Origin: Maribacter antarcticus DSM 21422
GTDB taxonomy: Bacteria > Bacteroidota > Bacteroidia > Flavobacteriales > Flavobacteriaceae
DNA length: 64,000 nt
Reading direction: 5' to 3'
NCBI RefSeq assembly: GCF_000621125.1
Contig: NZ_KK211214.1
Span: 186,001-250,000 of the forward strand
The position numbers and the translations under genes are program-made. Shown one piece after another: positions 1 through 50,729 of the stretch. The notes under the pieces are model-generated. The model was not told the DNA's origin. It was given only the letters and a program-made list of their open reading frames with translations, and did not search any database. How positions within the stretch are numbered: position 1 is the first letter of the stretch; every line of letters starts with the position of its first letter.

Positions 1-403
1 GTTCGGAACCAGCATATACTTTTAGGTTTCTGAAAAGCTCAGCTCCTAAACGGTTTTTAGGCAACATTCCCTTAACAGCTCTCTCAACAATACTAGCAGG
101 ATTTTTTTCCAACAACTGTATTGCAGTGGTTGCGCGTTGGCCACCCGGGTATCCTGTATAACGTAAGTATGTTTTTTCTGCCCATTTGTTTCCGCTAAGG
201 GTAACTTTTTCGGCGTTTATAATTACGACGTTGTCACCGCAATCTACATGAGGTGTAAAGCTTGGCTTGTGCTTTCCTCTTAATAAATTAGCTACTTTGG
301 AGGATAAACGACCTAGCGTTTGTCCCTCGGCATCAACCAACAACCATGCTTTACTTACGGTTGCCTTATTGGCAGATATGGTCTTATAACTTAATGTATC
401 CAC
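1..403 (-). CDS. rplM: 50S ribosomal protein L13 (5' part, runs off the left edge)
   Basis: Large-subunit ribosomal protein L13, an early assembly protein of the 50S subunit. The reverse strand translates from a GTG at 401-403 as VDTLSYKTISANKATVSKAW and continues with LLRGKHKPSFTPHVDCGDNV and RYTGYPGGQR, all typical of bacterial L13. About 134 codons are present and the last part of the gene lies outside the window. The GTG start is chosen because known flavobacterial L13 proteins begin with (M)DTLSYKT and no in-frame ATG lies just upstream. In flavobacteria rpsI normally follows, which would be outside the window. A good promoter sits about 50 nt upstream. Confidence 0.96.
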   Translation of the reverse strand, partial: MDTLSYKTISANKATVSKAWLLVDAEGQTLGRLSSKVANLLRGKHKPSFTPHVDCGDNVVIINAEKVTLSGNKWAEKTYLRYTGYPGGQRATTAIQLLEKNPASIVERAVKGMLPKNRLGAELFRNLKVYAGSE

Positions 404-723: not shown

Positions 724-1218
724 ATGAAATCAAAATTATGTACTTTAATAGTCGTGTCTGTTTTTATTTGGTCATGTAGTTCCGATAATAAAGATAGTTC
801 TGGTTCAAAAAATGACATTGTAGGAACTTGGGATGCCACAGCCTTGAATGTTGATATGAGCACAGCAAGTGATGAAGCTCAGCTGGGACAGCAGGTATTG
901 AATTTTTTATCGAATAACAATTGCTTCATTATTACGCTACAATTCAATGAAGATTTAACCGCCGAAGCAAGAAATGCTGTTGCTGATTTAGACGTAAGTA
1001 TTGGTGCGAGTGGTTTTACGATTCCCTGCCCAACGGAATTTGAAATAGAGACTAATACGTACACCTATAGCGATGGAGTAGTCAGTTTTTTGAACGAAGA
1101 TGGTAAGACAGTTAATGCTTTGGTGTCTATAAGTGGGGACATAATGACCGTAAATGCTTCAAGTTTAGAAATTCCTGATTTTGACGAAACGGGCGAGTTG
1201 GTTTTTAAAAGACAATAA
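724..1218 (+). CDS. Lipocalin-like outer-membrane lipoprotein, function unknown
   Basis: A 164-residue lipoprotein. The N-terminus is a type II signal peptide (MKSKLCTLIVVSVFIWSC) with the lipidated Cys at residue 18, followed by a Ser/Asp/Lys-rich linker. From residue 32 the pattern IVGTWDATALNVD, alternating strands and an ending in GELVFKRQ resemble the small lipocalin-like domains that are abundant as lipoproteins in Bacteroidota. Two cysteines at about residues 68 and 100 could form a disulfide. Ligand and role cannot be told from sequence. It stands alone, with its own candidate promoter and a terminator after it. Confidence 0.8.
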   Translation: MKSKLCTLIVVSVFIWSCSSDNKDSSGSKNDIVGTWDATALNVDMSTASDEAQLGQQVLNFLSNNNCFIITLQFNEDLTAEARNAVADLDVSIGASGFTIPCPTEFEIETNTYTYSDGVVSFLNEDGKTVNALVSISGDIMTVNASSLEIPDFDETGELVFKRQ

Positions 1219-1241: not shown

Positions 1242-1268
1242 AAAAACCCTCAAGTTGAGAAGGTTTTT
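1242..1268 (+). terminator. Rho-independent terminator after the lipoprotein gene
   Basis: AAAAACC and CTCAA pair with TTGAG and GGTTTTT around a one-base loop, with a two-base bulge, and the right arm runs into T-rich sequence. The A-rich left arm means it may also serve the convergent gene at 1276-1672. Confidence 0.65.
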
Positions 1269-1275
1269 CTTGTTC

Positions 1276-1672
1276 TTATATTATCCAATCAATGTATTTT
1301 GCTGCGCTTTTAGTTTGAATTAAACACCATTGTTTGTAGAACTTTGCCGCTACGCGCTGCACCTGTGATTTGATAGTGAGCGTGTACACTCTTTTTTCAA
1401 AGTCTGCAATAGGAATGTTGATGGCGTTATTTTTGACCTTCCATTCGTGTTGCAACACTGTATTGTGATAGATATCGAATACTATGATATAGGCTATTTC
1501 GGTGTCCTTTACCCCCCAATACATTTAGAACCTTAACAACAGGGTTTGGATGAATCGTGATCTTTTTTTCCTTTTGGCGTGTTGAGGCCGTTATACCGGA
1601 TTGCGCCATGTTGTAATTTATGCAGCCAAAAACTACTAAAGCTAGCGATAGACACTTTTCAATAGTTTTCAT
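1276..1672 (-). pseudogene. Frameshifted mini T9SS cargo: signal peptide plus type A sorting domain
   Basis: Two overlapping minus-strand frames make one protein if a single G is removed from the run of six G at about 1512-1517 (seen as CCCCCC on the plus strand). The first frame (start 1672) gives a signal peptide MKTIEKCLSLALVVFGCINY ending near NMAQ, a short linker and ITIHPNPVVKVLNVLG. The second frame continues VKDTEIAYIIVFDIYHNTVL, then INIPIADFEKRVYTLTI and AAKFYKQ. Together this is a T9SS type A C-terminal sorting domain with its PNP motif and GxYxLxI-like strand. The repaired product would be 131 residues with almost no passenger between signal and sorting domain. It ends with about 19 residues beyond the usual KFxK terminus. 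It may be a pseudogene, a phase-variable tract or a sequencing error in the homopolymer. Confidence 0.7.
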
Positions 1673-2617: not shown

Positions 2618-5452
2618 TTAATGCGCCTCTAACCAATTTTCACCAAGTCCAACCTCCACATCCAAAGGCACTACTATGGTATATGCATTTTCCATTTCTA
2701 ATTTAATCATGGCTTTTAGTTCCTCCAGTTCAGGTTTATAGATGTCAAATACTAATTCATCATGCACCTGCAAAAGCATTTTGGATTTGAACTTGCCCTC
2801 AGCTAGCTTTTGATGAATATTGATCATCGCAATTTTGATGATATCTGCTGCCGAACCTTGTATAGGTGCATTTACTGCGTTACGTTCAGCTGCGCCCCTT
2901 ACTATGGCATTACTTCCATTAATATCCTTAAGATAGCGTCTACGACCTAAAACCGTTTGCACATAACCGTGGTCACGCGCAAAATTTACCTGCTCGTTCA
3001 TGTAGCTCTTGAGCTTAGGATAGGTTTTGTAATAGGTCTCTATGAGTTCTTTTGCTTCGGAACGAGATAAATCTGTTTGGTTGCTCAATCCAAAAGCTGA
3101 AACTCCATAGATAATGCCAAAATTTACCGTTTTAGCATTTCCGCGCTGTTCTCGAGTCACTTCATCAATTGGAACACTGAAAACTTTTGATGCGGTAGAG
3201 GCGTGTATATCTTCTCCGTTTTTGAATGCCTCTATCATAGTGGTTTCCTCGCTAAGAGCTGCTATGATTCGTAGTTCTATTTGAGAGTAATCCGCTGCTA
3301 ATAACGTATGTTCTGCATCTCTGGGTACAAAGGCTTTTCGCACTTGCCGTCCGCGTTCCGTTCTAATCGGGATATTTTGCAAATTAGGATTGTTACTGCT
3401 CAATCGTCCTGTGGCGGCAACTGTCTGCATATAATCTGTATGTACCCTTCCTGTGCTTTCTTCCACTTGTAAAGGGAGTGCATCCACGTAGGTGCTTTTT
3501 AGTTTAGCAAGTCCGCGATAATCCAAAACATTTTGAATGATTTCATGATCTTTAGCTAGGTAGGATAGCACATCTTCTGCGGTGGAATACTGTCCAGTTT
3601 TGGTTTTCTTCGGCTTCTCTACCAATTTCATTTTATCAAAAAGGATTTCCCCTAATTGTTTGGGTGAGCCTATATTAAATTCTTGTTCTGCGGATTCGTA
3701 AATCTTTTTTTCTAAGCTAGCGATGTCATTGTTGAGGTCTTCTGAGAGTGAATTAAGAAATGCCTCATCTAGATTGATACCTTCCAATTCCATATCTGCT
3801 AGCACACGCAATAAGGGTATTTCTATATCCTTAAAAAGTCCGTCTGTTTTTGCTTCAGCCAGTTCAGGTCTAAACTGTTGTGCTAATTGAAACGTTATAT
3901 CCGCATCCTCAACGGCATATTCCGTTATTTTGTCAAGTGGAACATCGCGCATAGACAATTGGTTCTTGCCTTTCTTACCAATAAGTTCCGTAATGGAAAC
4001 GGGACTGTAATTCAAATAGGTTTCTGCCAACACATCCATATTATGTCGCATATCTGGATTGATAAGGTAGTGGGCCAGCATGGTGTCAAAATACTCACCT
4101 CTAACCTTGAGGTTATACTTGTCTAGGACTTTAATATCATACTTAAGATTTTGCCCAACTTTTTCAATACTTTCCGATTCAAAGAATGGTCTCAGCTCTT
4201 CGATAAGTTTTTGGGCTTCGTCCTTATCCTCAGGAAAAGGAATATAAAACCCTTTGGTAGCTTCCCAACTAAAAGCGATACCTACAAGTTCTGCTGTTAG
4301 TGGATTAAGGCCAGTAGTTTCCGTATCAAAACAAACAGAGGTTTGTTTTATTAGATTCTGAAGAAATAGCTTCATAGCCATGCCTGGCGCTATACTTTGG
4401 TAGGAATGGGGAATGTCTTTGATGGTTTTTCTGCTAGAGCTGTCCTTTATAGTAGCCGGTGAAGCACCGTCGCCGCCAAAAAGCGAGAACTGTCCAGTTC
4501 CGGCAGAGGAAGAAGCTTTTTTTACTGTTTCCGTGCTGGTAACTTCCCCTGTGGTTGTAGCTTCTTCTCCTGAAAATATTTTTATAAATTGGTCTTTTAA
4601 TCTTCTGAATTCTAGCTCTTCGAAGATTTCTTGTACTTTTTCATTATCAGGAATAGACATTTCGTAGTCCTTAGCGTTAAAGGATACCTCAACTTCTAAA
4701 CAAATAGTGGCTAATTTTTTAGAAAGTAGTCCCAACTCTTTATTGGCTTCAATCTTAACCTTCATGGCGCCTTTAAGCTTATCTGTATTTTCTAAAAGCC
4801 CTTCCATAGTGCCATATTCGGCAATAAATTTTCTAGCCGTCTTGTCGCCTACGCCCGGTAATCCTGGAATATTGTCACTGGCATCTCCCATCATGCCTAG
4901 GTAATCTATGACCTGTTCTGGTCGTTCTACACCAAAACGTTTTTGTATTTCTGGGATGCCCCAAATTTCTATACCATTTCCCATTCGAGCCGGGCGGTAC
5001 ATAAAGATATTCTCCGATACCAATTGTCCAAAATCTTTATCTGGTGTTACCATAAAAACCTTGTAATCCTCTTTTTCTGCTTGTTTGGCCAAGGTGCCAA
5101 TAATGTCATCGGCCTCCCAGCCTTCTAAAACAACAGAGGGGATATGCATTGCCTTTAGGATACTTTGAATGTAAGGCACCGCAATTTTTATAGCGTCCGG
5201 GGTTGCATCACGGTTCGCTTTATACTCTGGGAATAATTCGGTACGCTCTGCGCTTCCTCCCTTATCAAAACACACTGCCAAATGGTCTGGTTTCTCACGC
5301 TTTATTACATCGAACAAAGAGTTCATAAAACCCATTATTGCGCTGGTGTCCATACCTTTGGAATTAATTCTAGGGTTCTTTATTAAGGCGTAGTAGCCTC
5401 TAAAAATTAAGGCGTATGCGTCTAGTAGAAATAGTCTTTTTTGATCTGCCAT
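2618..5452 (-). CDS. polA: DNA polymerase I
   Basis: DNA polymerase I, 944 residues, for Okazaki-fragment processing and repair synthesis. Domains in order are the 5'-3' flap exonuclease (about 1-295, with VMVTPDKDF-like and DNIPGLPGVGDKTA helix-hairpin-helix motifs), a low-complexity linker rich in Ser/Thr/Gly (about 296-345), the 3'-5' exonuclease (about 350-540, with Asp376-Thr-Glu378 of the DEDD site intact, so proofreading is expected), and the polymerase domain. The polymerase carries motif A DYSQIELRI (near 720), motif B RGNAKTVNFGIIYGVS (near 770) and motif C VHDELVFD (near 905). E. coli Pol I is 928 residues, so length is normal. Its upstream gap contains a short tandem repeat. No clear TAnnTTTG promoter was found. 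Confidence 0.98.
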   Translation of the reverse strand: MADQKRLFLLDAYALIFRGYYALIKNPRINSKGMDTSAIMGFMNSLFDVIKREKPDHLAVCFDKGGSAERTELFPEYKANRDATPDAIKIAVPYIQSILKAMHIPSVVLEGWEADDIIGTLAKQAEKEDYKVFMVTPDKDFGQLVSENIFMYRPARMGNGIEIWGIPEIQKRFGVERPEQVIDYLGMMGDASDNIPGLPGVGDKTARKFIAEYGTMEGLLENTDKLKGAMKVKIEANKELGLLSKKLATICLEVEVSFNAKDYEMSIPDNEKVQEIFEELEFRRLKDQFIKIFSGEEATTTGEVTSTETVKKASSSAGTGQFSLFGGDGASPATIKDSSSRKTIKDIPHSYQSIAPGMAMKLFLQNLIKQTSVCFDTETTGLNPLTAELVGIAFSWEATKGFYIPFPEDKDEAQKLIEELRPFFESESIEKVGQNLKYDIKVLDKYNLKVRGEYFDTMLAHYLINPDMRHNMDVLAETYLNYSPVSITELIGKKGKNQLSMRDVPLDKITEYAVEDADITFQLAQQFRPELAEAKTDGLFKDIEIPLLRVLADMELEGINLDEAFLNSLSEDLNNDIASLEKKIYESAEQEFNIGSPKQLGEILFDKMKLVEKPKKTKTGQYSTAEDVLSYLAKDHEIIQNVLDYRGLAKLKSTYVDALPLQVEESTGRVHTDYMQTVAATGRLSSNNPNLQNIPIRTERGRQVRKAFVPRDAEHTLLAADYSQIELRIIAALSEETTMIEAFKNGEDIHASTASKVFSVPIDEVTREQRGNAKTVNFGIIYGVSAFGLSNQTDLSRSEAKELIETYYKTYPKLKSYMNEQVNFARDHGYVQTVLGRRRYLKDINGSNAIVRGAAERNAVNAPIQGSAADIIKIAMINIHQKLAEGKFKSKMLLQVHDELVFDIYKPELEELKAMIKLEMENAYTIVVPLDVEVGLGENWLEAH

Positions 5453-43565: not shown

Positions 43566-46500
43566 TTGAAATCAGGGGCAATCAATAATCTTAAAACATT
43601 TTTTAAGTATCTTTTTCTAATCTTATTTGTTTTTGGATCCATAGAAGCATCTATGGCCCAAGAAACAGATGAACAGGAAGTAGATTCTGTGAAAACCGGA
43701 TATGAACTAGGGCGTATTGCTCTGGAAAATCCTGAGAGTATCGTTTCTAGATACCTTTATGATGCTAAGTTAGATCGGTACGTCTACAATGAAAAAATTG
43801 GAAATTTCGATATAGGATATCCAATTATCCTCACACCAGAACAATATTATGATCTGATTAAAAAAGAGGGTATCAAATCTTACTTTAAGGAAAAGTCAGA
43901 TGCCTACTCCGGGAAAAAGCAAGGAAGCGAGGAAGCACGACGAAATTTACTACCCAATTTTTATGTAAATAATGATTTCTTCCAATCCGTATTCGGAGGG
44001 AATACCATAGAGGTGATACCGCAGGGTTCCGTAGCTATGGATTTGGGCGTTATTTGGCAAAAGAATGATAACCCATCACTTTCACCAAGGAACAGAACCA
44101 ACTTATCTTTTGATTTTGATCAGCGCATAAGTTTAAGTATGCTTGGAAAAATAGGCGAGCGTTTGCAGGTAAATGCCAACTATGATACTGAGGCTACTTT
44201 CGATTTTCAGAATATCGTAAAGTTGGATTATACCCCTACCGAGGACGATATTCTTCAAAAAATTGAAGTAGGTAACGTAAATATGCCTTTAAATAGTTCA
44301 CTTATACAAGGTGCACAGAGCTTGTTTGGGGTAAAGACGCAACTCCAATTTGGTAAAACAATGGTCACCGCAGTTTTCTCCGAACAGCGTTCCCAGAATA
44401 ATACGGTAGTGGCACAAGGTGGTGGTACATTAAATGAATTTAATATTACCGCTTTAGATTATGATGAGGACAAACACTTTTTCTTAGCGCATTATTTTAG
44501 GGATAATTACGATAGGGCGCTGGAAACCTACCCTTACATACAAAGCCAGGTGCAGATTACTAGATTAGAGGTTTGGGTAACCAATAGGAGCCAACAAACG
44601 CTAAACGTTCGTAATGTAGTGGCTTTTCAAGATTTAGGTGAAGTATTCCAGGAAAAAACAAGGGTAGGGCAAAATGGTGCAGATGCCGCAGGTTTTTTCA
44701 ATAATACCGTGGATAATCGTCCAAGAAATAACGCCAATGATTATGACCCGGAATTGATAGGGGCAGGAGGAGCATTGACTGCGAATATCAGGGATATTGC
44801 TACAGTAGAGAATGCGTTTAATCTCGGTAGTTTTACATCAGGGTATAGACCTAACCAAGGATTTGACTATGCTATTTTGGAGAATGCCCGAAAGCTGGAG
44901 CAGACACGTGATTATACCTTCAATTCGCAATTGGGGTATGTTTCTTTGAATCAAAGGTTGAGTAATGATGAGGTATTGGCTGTGGCTTTTCAATATACGT
45001 TTAAGGGCGAAGTCTTTCAAGTAGGGGAGTTTGCAAATGGAGGTTTGGATGCTACCACGGTTTCTCAAGGAGCGAATCCTATCATAGAGAATAATACCTT
45101 GATTCTTAAATTATTAAAAAGTAACATTACTAATGTCAGCGATCCTATTTGGGATTTGATGATGAAAAATATTTATGCCACGGGCGCATTCCGATTAAGT
45201 CAGGAAGATTTTAAACTTAATATATTGTATTCCGATCCTACGCCAAGAAATTATATTACCCCAATAGACGATGGGCCTGGTTCTGGATGGCCCGACGGTT
45301 TGGAGGAACGTATCTTATTGGATGTGTTTAATTTGGATAGGTTGAACGTATATAATGATTTACAACCAGGAGGTGATGGATTTTTTGATTTTTATCCAGG
45401 TATTACAGTTGATACCCAAGGCGGACGTATTGTCTTTACCAAAGTGGAACCCTTTGGAGAGTACTTGTTCGAAACCTTAGAGAACGGTAATGCTGGTCAG
45501 TATAATATGCCATCTGCCTATAATCCTAATCAAGACCAGTATGTATTTAGGGATATGTATGAGCTTACCAAGGCGGCGGCACTACAAGATCCAGAGAAAA
45601 ATAAATTTATTTTAAAAGGACGCTTTAAGGCAGAAGGGAGTAATGGAATTCCTATTGGAGCCTTCAATGTACCTAGAGGTTCGGTGAGGGTAACGGCAGG
45701 TGGTCGTCAATTGCAGGAGGGTATAGATTATACCGTAAATTACCAAGCGGGCACAGTACAGCTTTTGGATCCAAGTTTAGAGGCGTCCAATACGCCTATC
45801 AATATTTCAGTGGAAAATAATGCCGTTTTCGGGCAACAAACACGTCGTTTTACTGGGGTTAACGTAGAGCATCAGTTTAGTAAGAACTTTGTGCTAGGTG
45901 GTACCTTGTTAAATTTGAATGAGCGCCCACTTACCCAAAAATCGAATTTTGGTATAGAGCCTGTAAACAATACTATTTTTGGTTTAAATAGTAATTTTTC
46001 AACCGAAGTTCCTTTTTTGACTCGTATGGTGAACAAGTTACCTAATATAGATACTGATATACCTTCTAACGTGTCTATACGAGCAGAGGTTGCTTGGTTA
46101 AAGCCAAATTCTCCAAAGAACGCAGATTTTCAAGGAGAGACAACAACCTATTTAGATGATTTTGAAGGTGCCCAGACTCTTTTGGATGTTCGCGGTTCTT
46201 TGGCGTGGTCTTTAGCTAGTACGCCTTTAGAATTTGCACCAGGTGGTCAATTGTCGGGTAGCTCACCGGAAGATGCGGCCAACTTGCAGAATGGTTTTGG
46301 AAGGGCGAAAATGGCGTGGTATACGATTGACCCTATTTTTTACACGAACCAACGGCCGGCAGAAATAAGTGATAATGATATCTCTACCAACCCTACAAGA
46401 AGGGTTTTTATCGATGAAGTCTTTCCGCAAGTAGATATCGCCCAAGGTCAAACTACGGTGCAAGGGACTTTGGATATGGCCTATTACCCCAATGCAAAAG

Positions 46501-49500
46501 GACCTTATAATAATAACGCAAATTTTGATACGGCCGCGCCAAGTGAAAAGTGGGGTGGTATTATGCGATCTTTGAGCAGTACAAATTTTGAGCAGACCAA
46601 CGTAGAGTTCGTTCAGTTTTGGGTCTTAGATCCATATGTAGACGGGGAAGCAACCAGCGCAGGAGAATTGGTTTTAAACCTAGGAAACATCTCGGAGGAT
46701 ATTTTACGCGATGGGAAAAAACAATATGAAAACGGACTTCCTGGAGTAGAAAGTAATGATTTTATTGCACCTACAGCATGGGGAGAGGTTCCTGCTACCC
46801 AATCATTGGTTTATGCCTTTGATGCCAGTGAGCCTAATCGTGCCTTACAGGATATTGGGCTTGATGGTCTTAACGATGCAGCGGAACAGGCTATTTATGA
46901 CAGCAACCCCGGCCCAGATCCAGCACTGGATAACTTTCAGTATTACTTGAACCGCGAAGGTGGAATTTTAGAACGATATTTTGATTTTAATAATCCTGAT
47001 GGGAATTCGCCAGTGCAGGTGACCAATACAAATAGGGGGTCGACAACCTTACCGGATGTTGAAGATATAGATAGAGATTTAACTATGAATACGGTAAATA
47101 GTTACTACGAGTACCGTATTGGAATTAAGCCTAATACCACTATTAACGATAAGTATGTAACCGATATCAAAGAAGGGACTACGCCCGAACTTCCTAACGG
47201 AGATCAGCTCAATAGAAGATGGATACAGTATAAAATCCCGTTGAGTGATTTTACAGATGCCGTTGGTGGAATTACGGATTTTAGGTCCATTAGTTTTATG
47301 CGTATGTATATGACGGGATTCAACAACCCTACCGTACTCCGCTTTGCTACTCTAGATTTGGTGCGTGGCGATTGGCGTACGTATACCAAGACACTTCAGG
47401 ATAAGACTATAGATGATAATCCTGCGGATGACGGAACAACTTTGGACGTAAATACGGTAAATATTGAAGAGAACAACAGTCGGCTTCCTATCCCTTATGT
47501 TTTACCACCAGGTGTGGCCAGAGAACAATTAAACAATAATAACACCATTATTAGACAGAACGAGCAGTCCCTTTCACTATTGGTGGAAGATTTAGAGGCG
47601 CAAGATGCAAGAGGGGTTTTTAAGAATTTGAATATCGATATCCGTCAATACAAAAACCTTAAGATGTTTATGCATGCGGAAAAAATAGTGGATAGCGATT
47701 ATGCAGATAGTTCCACCCCTTTGGTTGGGTTCCTGCGTTTTGGAACTGATTTCTCGCAGAATTTTTATCAAGTTGAACTTCCGCTGCAGTTTACTCCGTT
47801 TGGAGCCGCTTCGGAAAGCGAGATATGGCCAGAGGTAAACGAAATGAACATTAGCCTTAGCGATTTGAACAAGGTAAAATCCTTATGGATTCAGAGTGGG
47901 GATTTAAGCGAGGTCCGTTTCTTTGAGGTTGAGAATGGCGAAGTGTTCCCTGTGAATGAATTCGATATCCGTACTCCAGGAAGAGTGCGTATAGGGTTAC
48001 GGGGAAACCCATCTTTGGGAAGTATCCGAAGTATTATGGTGGGGATAAAGAACCAAGATAATTTACCTGCACGAGGCGAGGTTTGGTTCAATGAGCTGCG
48101 GTTGGCAGGTTTGGATAATAATGGTGGTTGGGCTGCAGTTGCGGCAATAGATGCCAACATAGCTGATTTTGCAAATATGACCGCTACAGGTAGTACCAGT
48201 ACATCTGGTTTTGGAACTATTGATCAAATGCCAAATGAACGCGCCAGAGAAGATGCCGTTTCATATGACTTGGTAACCAATATAAATGTGGGTCAATTAC
48301 TGCCAAAAAAATGGGGCATACAATTACCTTTCAATTATGGTATTTCCGAGCAGATTATAACCCCGGAATTTGACCCTGTTTACGATGATTTAAAATTAGA
48401 CGACTTAATCGATGCCGCACCTGATCAGGAAGCTGCAGACGAAATAAGGGAGCAAGCAGAGGATTACACCAAAAGAACGAGTATCAATTTAATAGGAGTT
48501 CGTAAGGATAGAGGGCAGGAAGCAGATGAAAATTTCTATGATATAGAGAACTTCACCTTCAATTATTCCTACAACGAAACAGATCATAGGGATTTTGAGA
48601 TTGCCAAATTACGAGATCAAAGTGTGAATACTGGTTTTGTGTATGCCCATAGTTTTAAGCCACTTGAAATAGCACCTTTTGCTAAGAAAGATTCTTTGTT
48701 TAACGGCGCATACTGGAAATGGTTAAAAGAATTGAATCTTAATTTATTGCCAGCGAGTATTTCCTTGAATTCCAATATCAATAGGCAGTTCAATGCCCAA
48801 CGTTTCAGGGATGTTCGGGAAGAGGGTGTTGATCGTTTGGAGCTTCCGGAATTACAACAGCGTAATTACTTGTTTAATTGGCAATATGCCCTAAACTATA
48901 ATTTAACGAAGTCACTTCGTTTGAATTTGACGGCTTCCAACAATAATATTGTACGAAACTATTTTAACGAAAACGAGGCTGTTGATTCTAGAGACAGAAT
49001 AGATCAGGCATTAGAACTATGGGACGGATTTTTTGATATAGGTGAGCCGAATAGGCACTCCCAAGAAATGCAGTTGAACTATGAGATACCCTTTGCTAAG
49101 ATACCGGCTTTGGACTTTATAAGTGCACAGTATAGCTATACCGGTAATTTTGATTGGCAACGCGGCGGTGATGCCCTTAGGGAGGTTGTAGGAAGTGATA
49201 TCAACACCATCCAGAACGCAAACACGCATAACCTTACAGCATCGATGACTATGCAGAAGTTTTATGACTTTATAGGACTTAAGAAGCGTAAAGGTGGTGC
49301 TTTAGGAAGCAAGACTAAGTCTAAGAGAGGGAATCTAGGGCTAGCAGCAGATGCCGAAGAGAAAGTTGAGAAAAAGTCAAGCGCCCTGTTTAATACCTTG
49401 GTAGATGTGGTGACCATGGTAAAGCGACTGAACATAAATTATAACGAGAGTAATGGAACAGTGCTGCCTGGGTACACGCAATCTATTGGTTTTATAGGCA

Positions 49501-50729
49501 CCTCAAGACCCTCTTTAGGTTTTGTTTTTGGTAGCCAGTCGGATATTCGTTTTGAAGCGGCCAGAAATGGTTGGTTGACTACCTTCCCGGAGTTTAATGA
49601 ACAGTTTATTCAACGTACCAATACCCAGTTGAATATTACAGCCACGGCTCAGCCCACCAGAGATTTAACTATAGATTTAGTTGCAGATAGGCAGTTTTCG
49701 GAGAGCTATCAAGAGAACTTTAATGTAGATGTAACTGCAGACGAGCCCTATAACCTACAATTGGGAAACAATTTTGGAAGTTTTAGCATCTCTACCGTTA
49801 TGATTGGTACGGCCTTTAGTAGAAGTGATGAATTTGATTCTGAGACCTTTGAGCAGTTTAAGGCTAACCGATTGACCATTGCTAATCGTTTGGTTTCCGA
49901 TAGAGGAGAAGATCCTGGAACCTTGGATGAAGATGGTTTTCCGCAACGATATGGGAAGACGCAACAAGAGGTCTTGTTGCCTGCATTTTTTGCCGCCTAT
50001 AGTGGACAGAGCGGGGATAGGGTGAATCTAGATGCGTTTCGGGATATTCCTATTCCGAACTGGAATATCAAGTATACAGGATTGATGAAGAGTAAGTTCT
50101 TTAAAAAGAGATTCAAGCGCTTTTCGGTACAACATGGGTATCGCTCATCGTACAGCATTAACTCCTTTCAAACTAATTTGGAAAAAGAGAATGGTACTAT
50201 TGATGTGGAGACTGGAGATGTTTTGCCTGATAATATTATTAATAACGTGGTCATGGTAGATGGCTTCAACCCGTTGGTTCGAGTCGATTTTGAGATGAAA
50301 AATTCAGTAAGTGTATTGGCAGAAGTTAGAACGGATAGGGCTTTGTCTTTAAGTTTTGATAATAATCTAATGACTGAAATAAACGGAACGGACTATACCG
50401 TTGGGTTGGGCTATCGCATTAAAGATGTGAAACTAGTGACCAATATTGGTGGAAATAAGACTCGTTTAAAAGGTGATTTAAACCTAAAGGCAGACATTAC
50501 TTTACGGGATAATATCACCATTATCAGAAACTTGGATATCGATAATAATCAGATTACTTCTGGCCAAAATCTATTATCGGTTAAGTTTACTGCAGATTAC
50601 GCTTTAAGCAAGCAATTAAATGCACTGTTCTTTTATGATCATTCTTTTTCTCAGTTCGCTGTATCTACGGCGTTCCCACAAACTACAATCAATGCAGGGT
50701 TTACGCTCAGGTATAATTTTGGTAATTAA
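43566..50729 (+). CDS. sprA: SprA, type IX secretion outer-membrane translocon / gliding motility protein
   Basis: A 2387-residue outer-membrane beta-barrel that forms the type IX secretion channel and is required for gliding. Length matches F. johnsoniae SprA (about 2400). The start is a TTG at 43566: the signal peptide (NLKTFFKYLFLILFVFGSIE to ASMAQ) begins right after it and no ATG precedes it. Order: N-terminal soluble region, then repeated SprA N-like blocks (LFGVKTQLQFGKTMVTAVFS, later the DDFEGAQTLLDVRG and WFNELRLAGLDNNGGWA motifs), and many amphipathic strands to the end, which closes with TTINAGFTLRYNFGN, a typical barrel terminus. It lies 5 nt after ruvA in an operon. Its cargo would include sorting-domain proteins such as the mini-cargo at 1.3-1.7 kb. 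Confidence 0.97.
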   Translation: MKSGAINNLKTFFKYLFLILFVFGSIEASMAQETDEQEVDSVKTGYELGRIALENPESIVSRYLYDAKLDRYVYNEKIGNFDIGYPIILTPEQYYDLIKKEGIKSYFKEKSDAYSGKKQGSEEARRNLLPNFYVNNDFFQSVFGGNTIEVIPQGSVAMDLGVIWQKNDNPSLSPRNRTNLSFDFDQRISLSMLGKIGERLQVNANYDTEATFDFQNIVKLDYTPTEDDILQKIEVGNVNMPLNSSLIQGAQSLFGVKTQLQFGKTMVTAVFSEQRSQNNTVVAQGGGTLNEFNITALDYDEDKHFFLAHYFRDNYDRALETYPYIQSQVQITRLEVWVTNRSQQTLNVRNVVAFQDLGEVFQEKTRVGQNGADAAGFFNNTVDNRPRNNANDYDPELIGAGGALTANIRDIATVENAFNLGSFTSGYRPNQGFDYAILENARKLEQTRDYTFNSQLGYVSLNQRLSNDEVLAVAFQYTFKGEVFQVGEFANGGLDATTVSQGANPIIENNTLILKLLKSNITNVSDPIWDLMMKNIYATGAFRLSQEDFKLNILYSDPTPRNYITPIDDGPGSGWPDGLEERILLDVFNLDRLNVYNDLQPGGDGFFDFYPGITVDTQGGRIVFTKVEPFGEYLFETLENGNAGQYNMPSAYNPNQDQYVFRDMYELTKAAALQDPEKNKFILKGRFKAEGSNGIPIGAFNVPRGSVRVTAGGRQLQEGIDYTVNYQAGTVQLLDPSLEASNTPINISVENNAVFGQQTRRFTGVNVEHQFSKNFVLGGTLLNLNERPLTQKSNFGIEPVNNTIFGLNSNFSTEVPFLTRMVNKLPNIDTDIPSNVSIRAEVAWLKPNSPKNADFQGETTTYLDDFEGAQTLLDVRGSLAWSLASTPLEFAPGGQLSGSSPEDAANLQNGFGRAKMAWYTIDPIFYTNQRPAEISDNDISTNPTRRVFIDEVFPQVDIAQGQTTVQGTLDMAYYPNAKGPYNNNANFDTAAPSEKWGGIMRSLSSTNFEQTNVEFVQFWVLDPYVDGEATSAGELVLNLGNISEDILRDGKKQYENGLPGVESNDFIAPTAWGEVPATQSLVYAFDASEPNRALQDIGLDGLNDAAEQAIYDSNPGPDPALDNFQYYLNREGGILERYFDFNNPDGNSPVQVTNTNRGSTTLPDVEDIDRDLTMNTVNSYYEYRIGIKPNTTINDKYVTDIKEGTTPELPNGDQLNRRWIQYKIPLSDFTDAVGGITDFRSISFMRMYMTGFNNPTVLRFATLDLVRGDWRTYTKTLQDKTIDDNPADDGTTLDVNTVNIEENNSRLPIPYVLPPGVAREQLNNNNTIIRQNEQSLSLLVEDLEAQDARGVFKNLNIDIRQYKNLKMFMHAEKIVDSDYADSSTPLVGFLRFGTDFSQNFYQVELPLQFTPFGAASESEIWPEVNEMNISLSDLNKVKSLWIQSGDLSEVRFFEVENGEVFPVNEFDIRTPGRVRIGLRGNPSLGSIRSIMVGIKNQDNLPARGEVWFNELRLAGLDNNGGWAAVAAIDANIADFANMTATGSTSTSGFGTIDQMPNERAREDAVSYDLVTNINVGQLLPKKWGIQLPFNYGISEQIITPEFDPVYDDLKLDDLIDAAPDQEAADEIREQAEDYTKRTSINLIGVRKDRGQEADENFYDIENFTFNYSYNETDHRDFEIAKLRDQSVNTGFVYAHSFKPLEIAPFAKKDSLFNGAYWKWLKELNLNLLPASISLNSNINRQFNAQRFRDVREEGVDRLELPELQQRNYLFNWQYALNYNLTKSLRLNLTASNNNIVRNYFNENEAVDSRDRIDQALELWDGFFDIGEPNRHSQEMQLNYEIPFAKIPALDFISAQYSYTGNFDWQRGGDALREVVGSDINTIQNANTHNLTASMTMQKFYDFIGLKKRKGGALGSKTKSKRGNLGLAADAEEKVEKKSSALFNTLVDVVTMVKRLNINYNESNGTVLPGYTQSIGFIGTSRPSLGFVFGSQSDIRFEAARNGWLTTFPEFNEQFIQRTNTQLNITATAQPTRDLTIDLVADRQFSESYQENFNVDVTADEPYNLQLGNNFGSFSISTVMIGTAFSRSDEFDSETFEQFKANRLTIANRLVSDRGEDPGTLDEDGFPQRYGKTQQEVLLPAFFAAYSGQSGDRVNLDAFRDIPIPNWNIKYTGLMKSKFFKKRFKRFSVQHGYRSSYSINSFQTNLEKENGTIDVETGDVLPDNIINNVVMVDGFNPLVRVDFEMKNSVSVLAEVRTDRALSLSFDNNLMTEINGTDYTVGLGYRIKDVKLVTNIGGNKTRLKGDLNLKADITLRDNITIIRNLDIDNNQITSGQNLLSVKFTADYALSKQLNALFFYDHSFSQFAVSTAFPQTTINAGFTLRYNFGN

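Follow-up and report, generated by a model that had tools for sequence, protein, structure and literature searches.

A gene in which a signal peptide is followed by a T9SS type A sorting domain, the two separated by hardly any cargo, and which has no continuous reading frame, raises the question of what such a locus is for, if anything. It was encountered in a 64,000-nucleotide stretch of the Maribacter antarcticus DSM 21422 genome (referred to here as the window), where a preliminary description made from the sequence had ascribed the break to a run of six G and had offered three readings: a phase-variable switch, a decoy for the secretion machinery, or a decayed gene. The analysis described below indicates that the locus is very probably an ortholog, decayed only recently, of a conserved mini-protein composed of a signal peptide, a linker, and a C-terminal sorting domain (CTD), and that it represents ordinary gene decay.

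One gene in two frames

The broken gene lies on the minus strand at 1276..1672 and shows both a frameshift and the loss of its stop codon. Its first frame (1427..1672, minus; 81 aa, beginning MKTIEKC) encodes the signal peptide, the linker, and the first strands of the sorting domain, followed by out-of-frame residues, and alone it matches no family. The second frame (1276..1524, minus; 82 aa) encodes the remainder of the sorting domain and an extension, without a signal peptide, and scores 17.1 bits against PF18962, for which the cut-off is 27. No single frame of the window copy is open from the signal peptide to the terminal motif. The frame breaks at the G6 run (1512..1517, minus; C6 on the plus strand), and when one base was skipped there, a 131-residue read-through ending at a stop codon was obtained (1672-1276, minus), as had been predicted for the removal of one G.

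Within the read-through, a signal peptide region of 24 residues, ending in AQ, was judged by eye (1601..1672, minus), and the sorting domain, from ITIHPNP to KFYKQ, was delimited from the read-through, Pfam, and relatives (1330..1561, minus); this domain is split by the frameshift. Approximately 14 residues separate the likely end of the signal peptide from the domain, so that the short spacing described at first is borne out, while its figure of about 12 residues is not. Family-like sequence persists 3' of the break, including NNAINIP and KFYKQ. At the position of the relatives' stop codon, the window copy reads TGG (1329-1327), and the frame stays open for a further 17 residues before a TAA (1276..1329, minus). 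An extension beyond the usual end of the family had been noted before and is indeed present, although it is 17 residues long and not about 19.

The read-through scored 28.0 bits against PF18962, one bit above the cut-off of 27, and remained below the cut-off of TIGR04183 (13.9 bits; cut-off, 23) and the gathering score of DUF3244 (PF11589; 15.4 bits; gathering score, 25). The window copy thus fits the sorting-domain models poorly. In a protein search of 36 genus genomes at an E value of ≤0.001, it matched 34, its own included; the genomes with no match at this threshold were G012 and G024. Because the read-through finds these relatives and reaches PF18962, while the halves alone fall short, the two halves were taken to be one gene. 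The frames, the relatives' matches, and PF18962 confirm that a signal peptide and a type A sorting domain with little between them are split at G6.

Just 3' of the broken gene, a hairpin search and folding revealed a terminator-like hairpin of 10 pairs with a T tail (1242..1268, minus; −13.6 kcal/mol; z, −3.82), the one such hairpin found versus a shuffle mean of 0.5. The usual upstream neighbor of the mini-protein family, polA, was identified from its ORF, Pfam, and relatives' loci (2618..5452, minus). An intact small lipoprotein-like gene is convergent with the broken gene (724..1218, plus) and belongs to a cluster found in 58 of 81 grouped loci. The gene for ribosomal protein L13, rplM (2..403, minus), was named by similarity to relatives' loci. 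The gene order of the window is the same as that in relatives' loci. Between polA and the broken gene there is also a gene (1974-2552, plus) with no Pfam match at an E value of ≤0.1; its cluster occurs in only 4 of the 81 grouped loci, and it is 38 to 42% identical in G047 and G011.

A family of cargo-free sorting-domain proteins

The intact orthologs are cargo-free mini-proteins of 99 to 118 aa. They are intact in 32 of the 36 genus genomes (31 plus G041) and broken in three, namely, the window genome, G012, in which a multi-lesion remnant lies directly after polA, and G015, in which one base is inserted within a few bases of the codons broken in the window copy; no family match was found in G024, a 64%-complete genome. 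The 31 intact genus copies have linkers of 2 to 16 residues (median, 6), have no cargo domain before the CTD, and end in a [KR]FxK-type motif with the stop codon immediately after it. In the window's own genome, no second copy of the polA-linked family was found at an E value of ≤0.001.

A scan of genome contigs returned 181 stretches encoding relatives. The 80 best were retained; L129 and L130 proved to be other sorting-domain proteins, which leaves 78 family members. Hosts among these best-scoring stretches include Maribacter, Pricia, Kriegella, Aurantibacter, Pseudozobellia, Ulvibacterium, and Eudoraea, along with others. The gene is intact at 76 of the 78 loci, at 5 of them only from a non-ATG start; the copies at L066, L070, and L106 are intact and end in RFYK. 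The two broken members are L127, with an in-frame TAG, and L128, which is the G015 record. Counted as minima, since at many of the remaining loci the sequence ends before the neighbor position, polA precedes the mini gene on the same strand in 70 of these 78 loci, rplM, rpsI, or rpsB is downstream in 51, and both polA and a downstream neighbor are present in 45; in 48 loci, no gene of ≥70 aa lies between polA and the mini gene. At 12 loci (L065, L080, L088, L097, L103, L106, L107, L109, L117, L119, L123, and L128), polA and the mini gene are separated by two genes, one large (median, 1196 aa) and LRR-like by eye, the other lipoprotein-like and about 224 aa long; a related sorting domain is present in at least some of the large frames. 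When 299 evenly sampled genomes of the taxonomic family were searched, 75 gave a match at an E value of ≤1e-10. Scores above 70 bits were reached in 27 of the 299, own genome included, with the next match at 54.6, and the broken copies among those 27 are the window copy and that of G296 (TAA plus shifts).

All 23 of the 23 intact members match TIGR04183 and PF18962 at an E value of ≤0.01, the first member with 48.5 bits (cut-off, 23) and 53.3 bits (cut-off, 27), respectively. An AlphaFold2 model of the intact family, built from 23 sequences, had a mean pLDDT of 84.1 and seven strands from residue 36 on. The mini-proteins have in common with T9SS type A proteins a Sec-type signal peptide, a C-terminal seven-strand domain, and the PNP, GxY, and terminal KFxK motifs; unlike those proteins, they carry almost no cargo, and the window copy is broken as well. 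The intact copies are probably exported, with a product that is nearly the CTD alone.

In Foldseek searches with the family model, the best matches were to DUF3244 proteins and to SprA-bound T9SS CTDs, and the matches included 8glk_D, 8gl6_D, and 8qb1. DUF3244 proteins (PF11589; PDB 4g5a and 3d33), which appear in table rows of PMC10434189, are small stand-alone Ig-like proteins of Bacteroides and resemble the mini-proteins in size, and 4g5a was the top match (E value, 3.7e-05; TM, 0.59/0.65). However, the Pfam match to DUF3244 is weak (6 of 23 members at an E value of ≤0.01; best score shown, 17.9 bits for the first member, versus a cut-off of 25), and the sorting-domain models score intact members far better. 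The CTDs of Flavobacterium johnsoniae NucA, RemA, and FspA on SprA-PorV (8glk, 8gl6, and 8glj) were matched over 77 to 81 columns, and 8glj and 8glk also matched the family by sequence profile. Unlike the mini-proteins, these CTDs are the tails of cargo proteins or mCherry fusions, according to the available portion of PMC10994853. A further candidate likeness is to PorA of Porphyromonas gingivalis, which an excerpt of PMC7712824 presents as a CTD protein tied to T9SS regulation whose CTD binds PorV; unlike the mini-proteins, PorA has a separate N-terminal FimH-like domain.

The family is apparently undescribed: searches of one literature collection returned no description of cargo-free CTD proteins, and the term "orphan CTD," as used in the accessible passages of PMC12618676, denotes type B substrates without a genetic link to a shuttle gene. 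The T9SS outer membrane translocon, SprA, is encoded in the window (43716-50723, plus; TIGR04189, 2902.6 bits) by an open frame of 2400 aa with no internal stop, and the genome contains 13 TIGR04183 matches above the cut-off. A search for other signal-plus-CTD mini-proteins, which the preliminary description had proposed, found two more in the same genome, intact cargo-free sorting-domain proteins of 114 and 102 aa encoded in tandem on the minus strand (L136:3033-3377 and 3536-3844; contig C6 near 257035-257843). The pair adjoins a gene for a 945-aa TonB-dependent-receptor-like protein, and both proteins are found in 35 of the 36 genus genomes. Elsewhere, in G061, G078, G100, G107, G153, G276, G304, and G319, frames of 109 to 119 aa match the profile nearly end to end at approximately 45 to 50 bits, and these are possibly further cargo-free CTD families.

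Probable decay of the window copy and competing readings

Beyond the frameshift and the lost stop codon, the window copy is changed at 6 of the 16 columns that are ≥97% conserved (K2T, F4H, A8V, N19D, G32H, and G57R), while the other 60 taxa have at most one change each at the same columns in a leave-one-out count. Divergence was measured relative to polA in 61 taxa, those for which a mini sequence (77 available) could be paired with a polA of >600 aa (62 available), L127 to L130 having been left out beforehand; the mini/polA distance ratio of the window ranked first, at 3.76, with the next at 3.29. As a second control, we used one orthologous 732-aa cargo protein, of which 30 of 36 orthologs were fetched and which was present together with the mini-protein in 26 genomes. 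The mini/cargo-body distance ratio of the window was again first of the 26, at 1.44, versus at most 1.22 in the other 25, and in 25 of 25 window pairs, conservation was lower for the mini CTD than for the control cargo CTD.

Between the window and its nearest relative, G008, the mini CTD is 52% identical, versus 93% for polA and 82% for the CTD of the orthologous ordinary cargo, and the profile scores of the two mini-proteins are 28.0 versus 53.3 bits (PF18962) and 13.9 versus 48.5 bits (TIGR04183). Since the split from G008, dN amounts to about 0.29 for the window branch and 0.15 for that of G008, a rough twofold excess calculated by hand with G011 as the outgroup. Against decay speak the family-like sequence 3' of the break, the PF18962 cut-off still being exceeded by one bit, and the neighboring lipoprotein gene, which is also fast evolving, with 59% identity to G008. 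One of the changed glycines (YGN to YHN) sits in the β3-β4 loop of the family model. In P. gingivalis RgpB, a change of Gly to Arg in the β3-β4 loop blocked secretion, as reported in part of PMC11285876, and the YHN position may correspond to that loop glycine. With intact orthologs at the same locus, a lost stop, altered near-invariant residues, and the fastest divergence, the decayed-gene option among the three original readings is supported.

In a codon model, an omega of 1 along the entire window branch was rejected (lnL, −5584.17 versus −5579.36), with synonymous sites saturated. A free omega on this branch (−5579.51) was no better than the background value of 0.105, a comparison that the saturation of synonymous sites renders uninformative on relaxation. 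As neutrality across the whole branch is rejected, a long neutral decay is excluded and the decay looks recent; this fits a gene that was constrained for most of its history and may have been given up lately.

In intact relatives, Sec would carry the mini-protein across the inner membrane, and the T9SS would then recognize its CTD. In the window genome, the frameshift at the G run would leave the signal peptide and the C-terminal half of the CTD in different frames, so that the first frame would yield a secreted fragment without the C-terminal motifs needed for T9SS recognition and the second a product without a signal peptide. With one frame lacking those motifs and the other the signal peptide, the suggestion that the window copy acts as a decoy for the secretion machinery is not supported. 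The stop loss and the changed near-invariant residues would be as expected once the gene was no longer maintained, and G6 would be one lesion among several, not a switch. The four other broken copies each broke differently, by insertion (G015), by multiple lesions (G012), by an in-frame TAG (L127), and by a TAA plus shifts (G296).

An assembly or sequencing error, which would imply a true tract of G5 and an intact gene that has only diverged and been extended, appears improbable. Homopolymer runs are a well-known source of error, and many of the pseudogenes in databases have technical causes, according to an excerpt of PMC11017572; the constraint that the codon model finds along the window branch would also suit an intact gene, and the T9SS can tolerate C-terminal extensions, which alone need not abolish its function (PMC11285876, in part). 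However, with G5 in place of G6 the gene would still not be an ordinary intact one, as the six changed near-invariant columns and the lost stop, which are substitutions beyond a run-length error, would remain. Furthermore, two other G6 runs in the window (62889 and 63741) lie within an intact 411-aa ORF, and an A9 run lies within an intact 409-aa ORF.

The proposal of a phase-variable contingency locus, with slippage of the G tract switching the gene on and off, draws on the exact coincidence of the frame break with the G run and on the role of G/C tracts in the phase variation of other bacteria, but it is scarcely credible here. The tract is G6, whereas Campylobacter tracts are mainly G9 to G10 (PMC8355987, in the portion available), and no long tract is kept, none of the 31 intact genus copies exceeding GGGG (longest run at the site, 4 in 3 copies, 3 in 7, and 2 in 21). 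The other broken copies broke elsewhere or differently, and correction of the frame would leave the stop loss and the altered residues in place. Across the window, G6/C6 runs are rarer than expected (4 observed versus a mean of 15.0 and a range of 8 to 26 in 60 first-order Markov simulations). That the frameshift is used, through programmed frameshifting, polymerase slippage, or two separate functional small proteins, is likewise most improbable: both frames are open for about 80 codons, the second starts with ATG, and the G015 insertion falls within a few bases of the same codons, but G008 and 31 other intact genus copies require no frameshift, and the slippery run is not conserved.

What a free sorting domain may do

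Stronger constraint on the mini CTD than on an ordinary tag was tested for and is not supported, as identities are similar. With the window left out, 300 genome pairs gave mean identities of 65.4% (mini CTD), 63.2% (control cargo CTD), and 67.6% (cargo body), and the mini CTD was above the cargo CTD in 192 of the 300 pairs. The mini CTD is about as conserved as the CTD of one ordinary cargo, and its degree of conservation does not in itself point to a private role. We tentatively put forward, as a rather unlikely possibility, that the intact mini-protein functions as a free CTD, either by occupying PorV or the SprA translocon or as a bare Ig-like domain at the surface, and that it thereby tunes T9SS traffic or reports on it; in that case, it would have been lost from the window lineage and from at least four more, and its loss would be tolerated, at least in the window's own genome beside the two other intact cargo-free CTD proteins.

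The broken copy is one more decayed gene and carries little weight alone; the family, not the G tract, merits attention. What the decay exposes is a single-copy T9SS address tag with almost nothing to deliver, kept beside polA across Maribacter and related Flavobacteriaceae. If the tag itself is the product, it would be a minimal natural ligand for PorV or SprA and would make it possible to test whether secretion is regulated by free sorting domains, a question for which the lineages without an intact mini gene would serve as natural knockouts.
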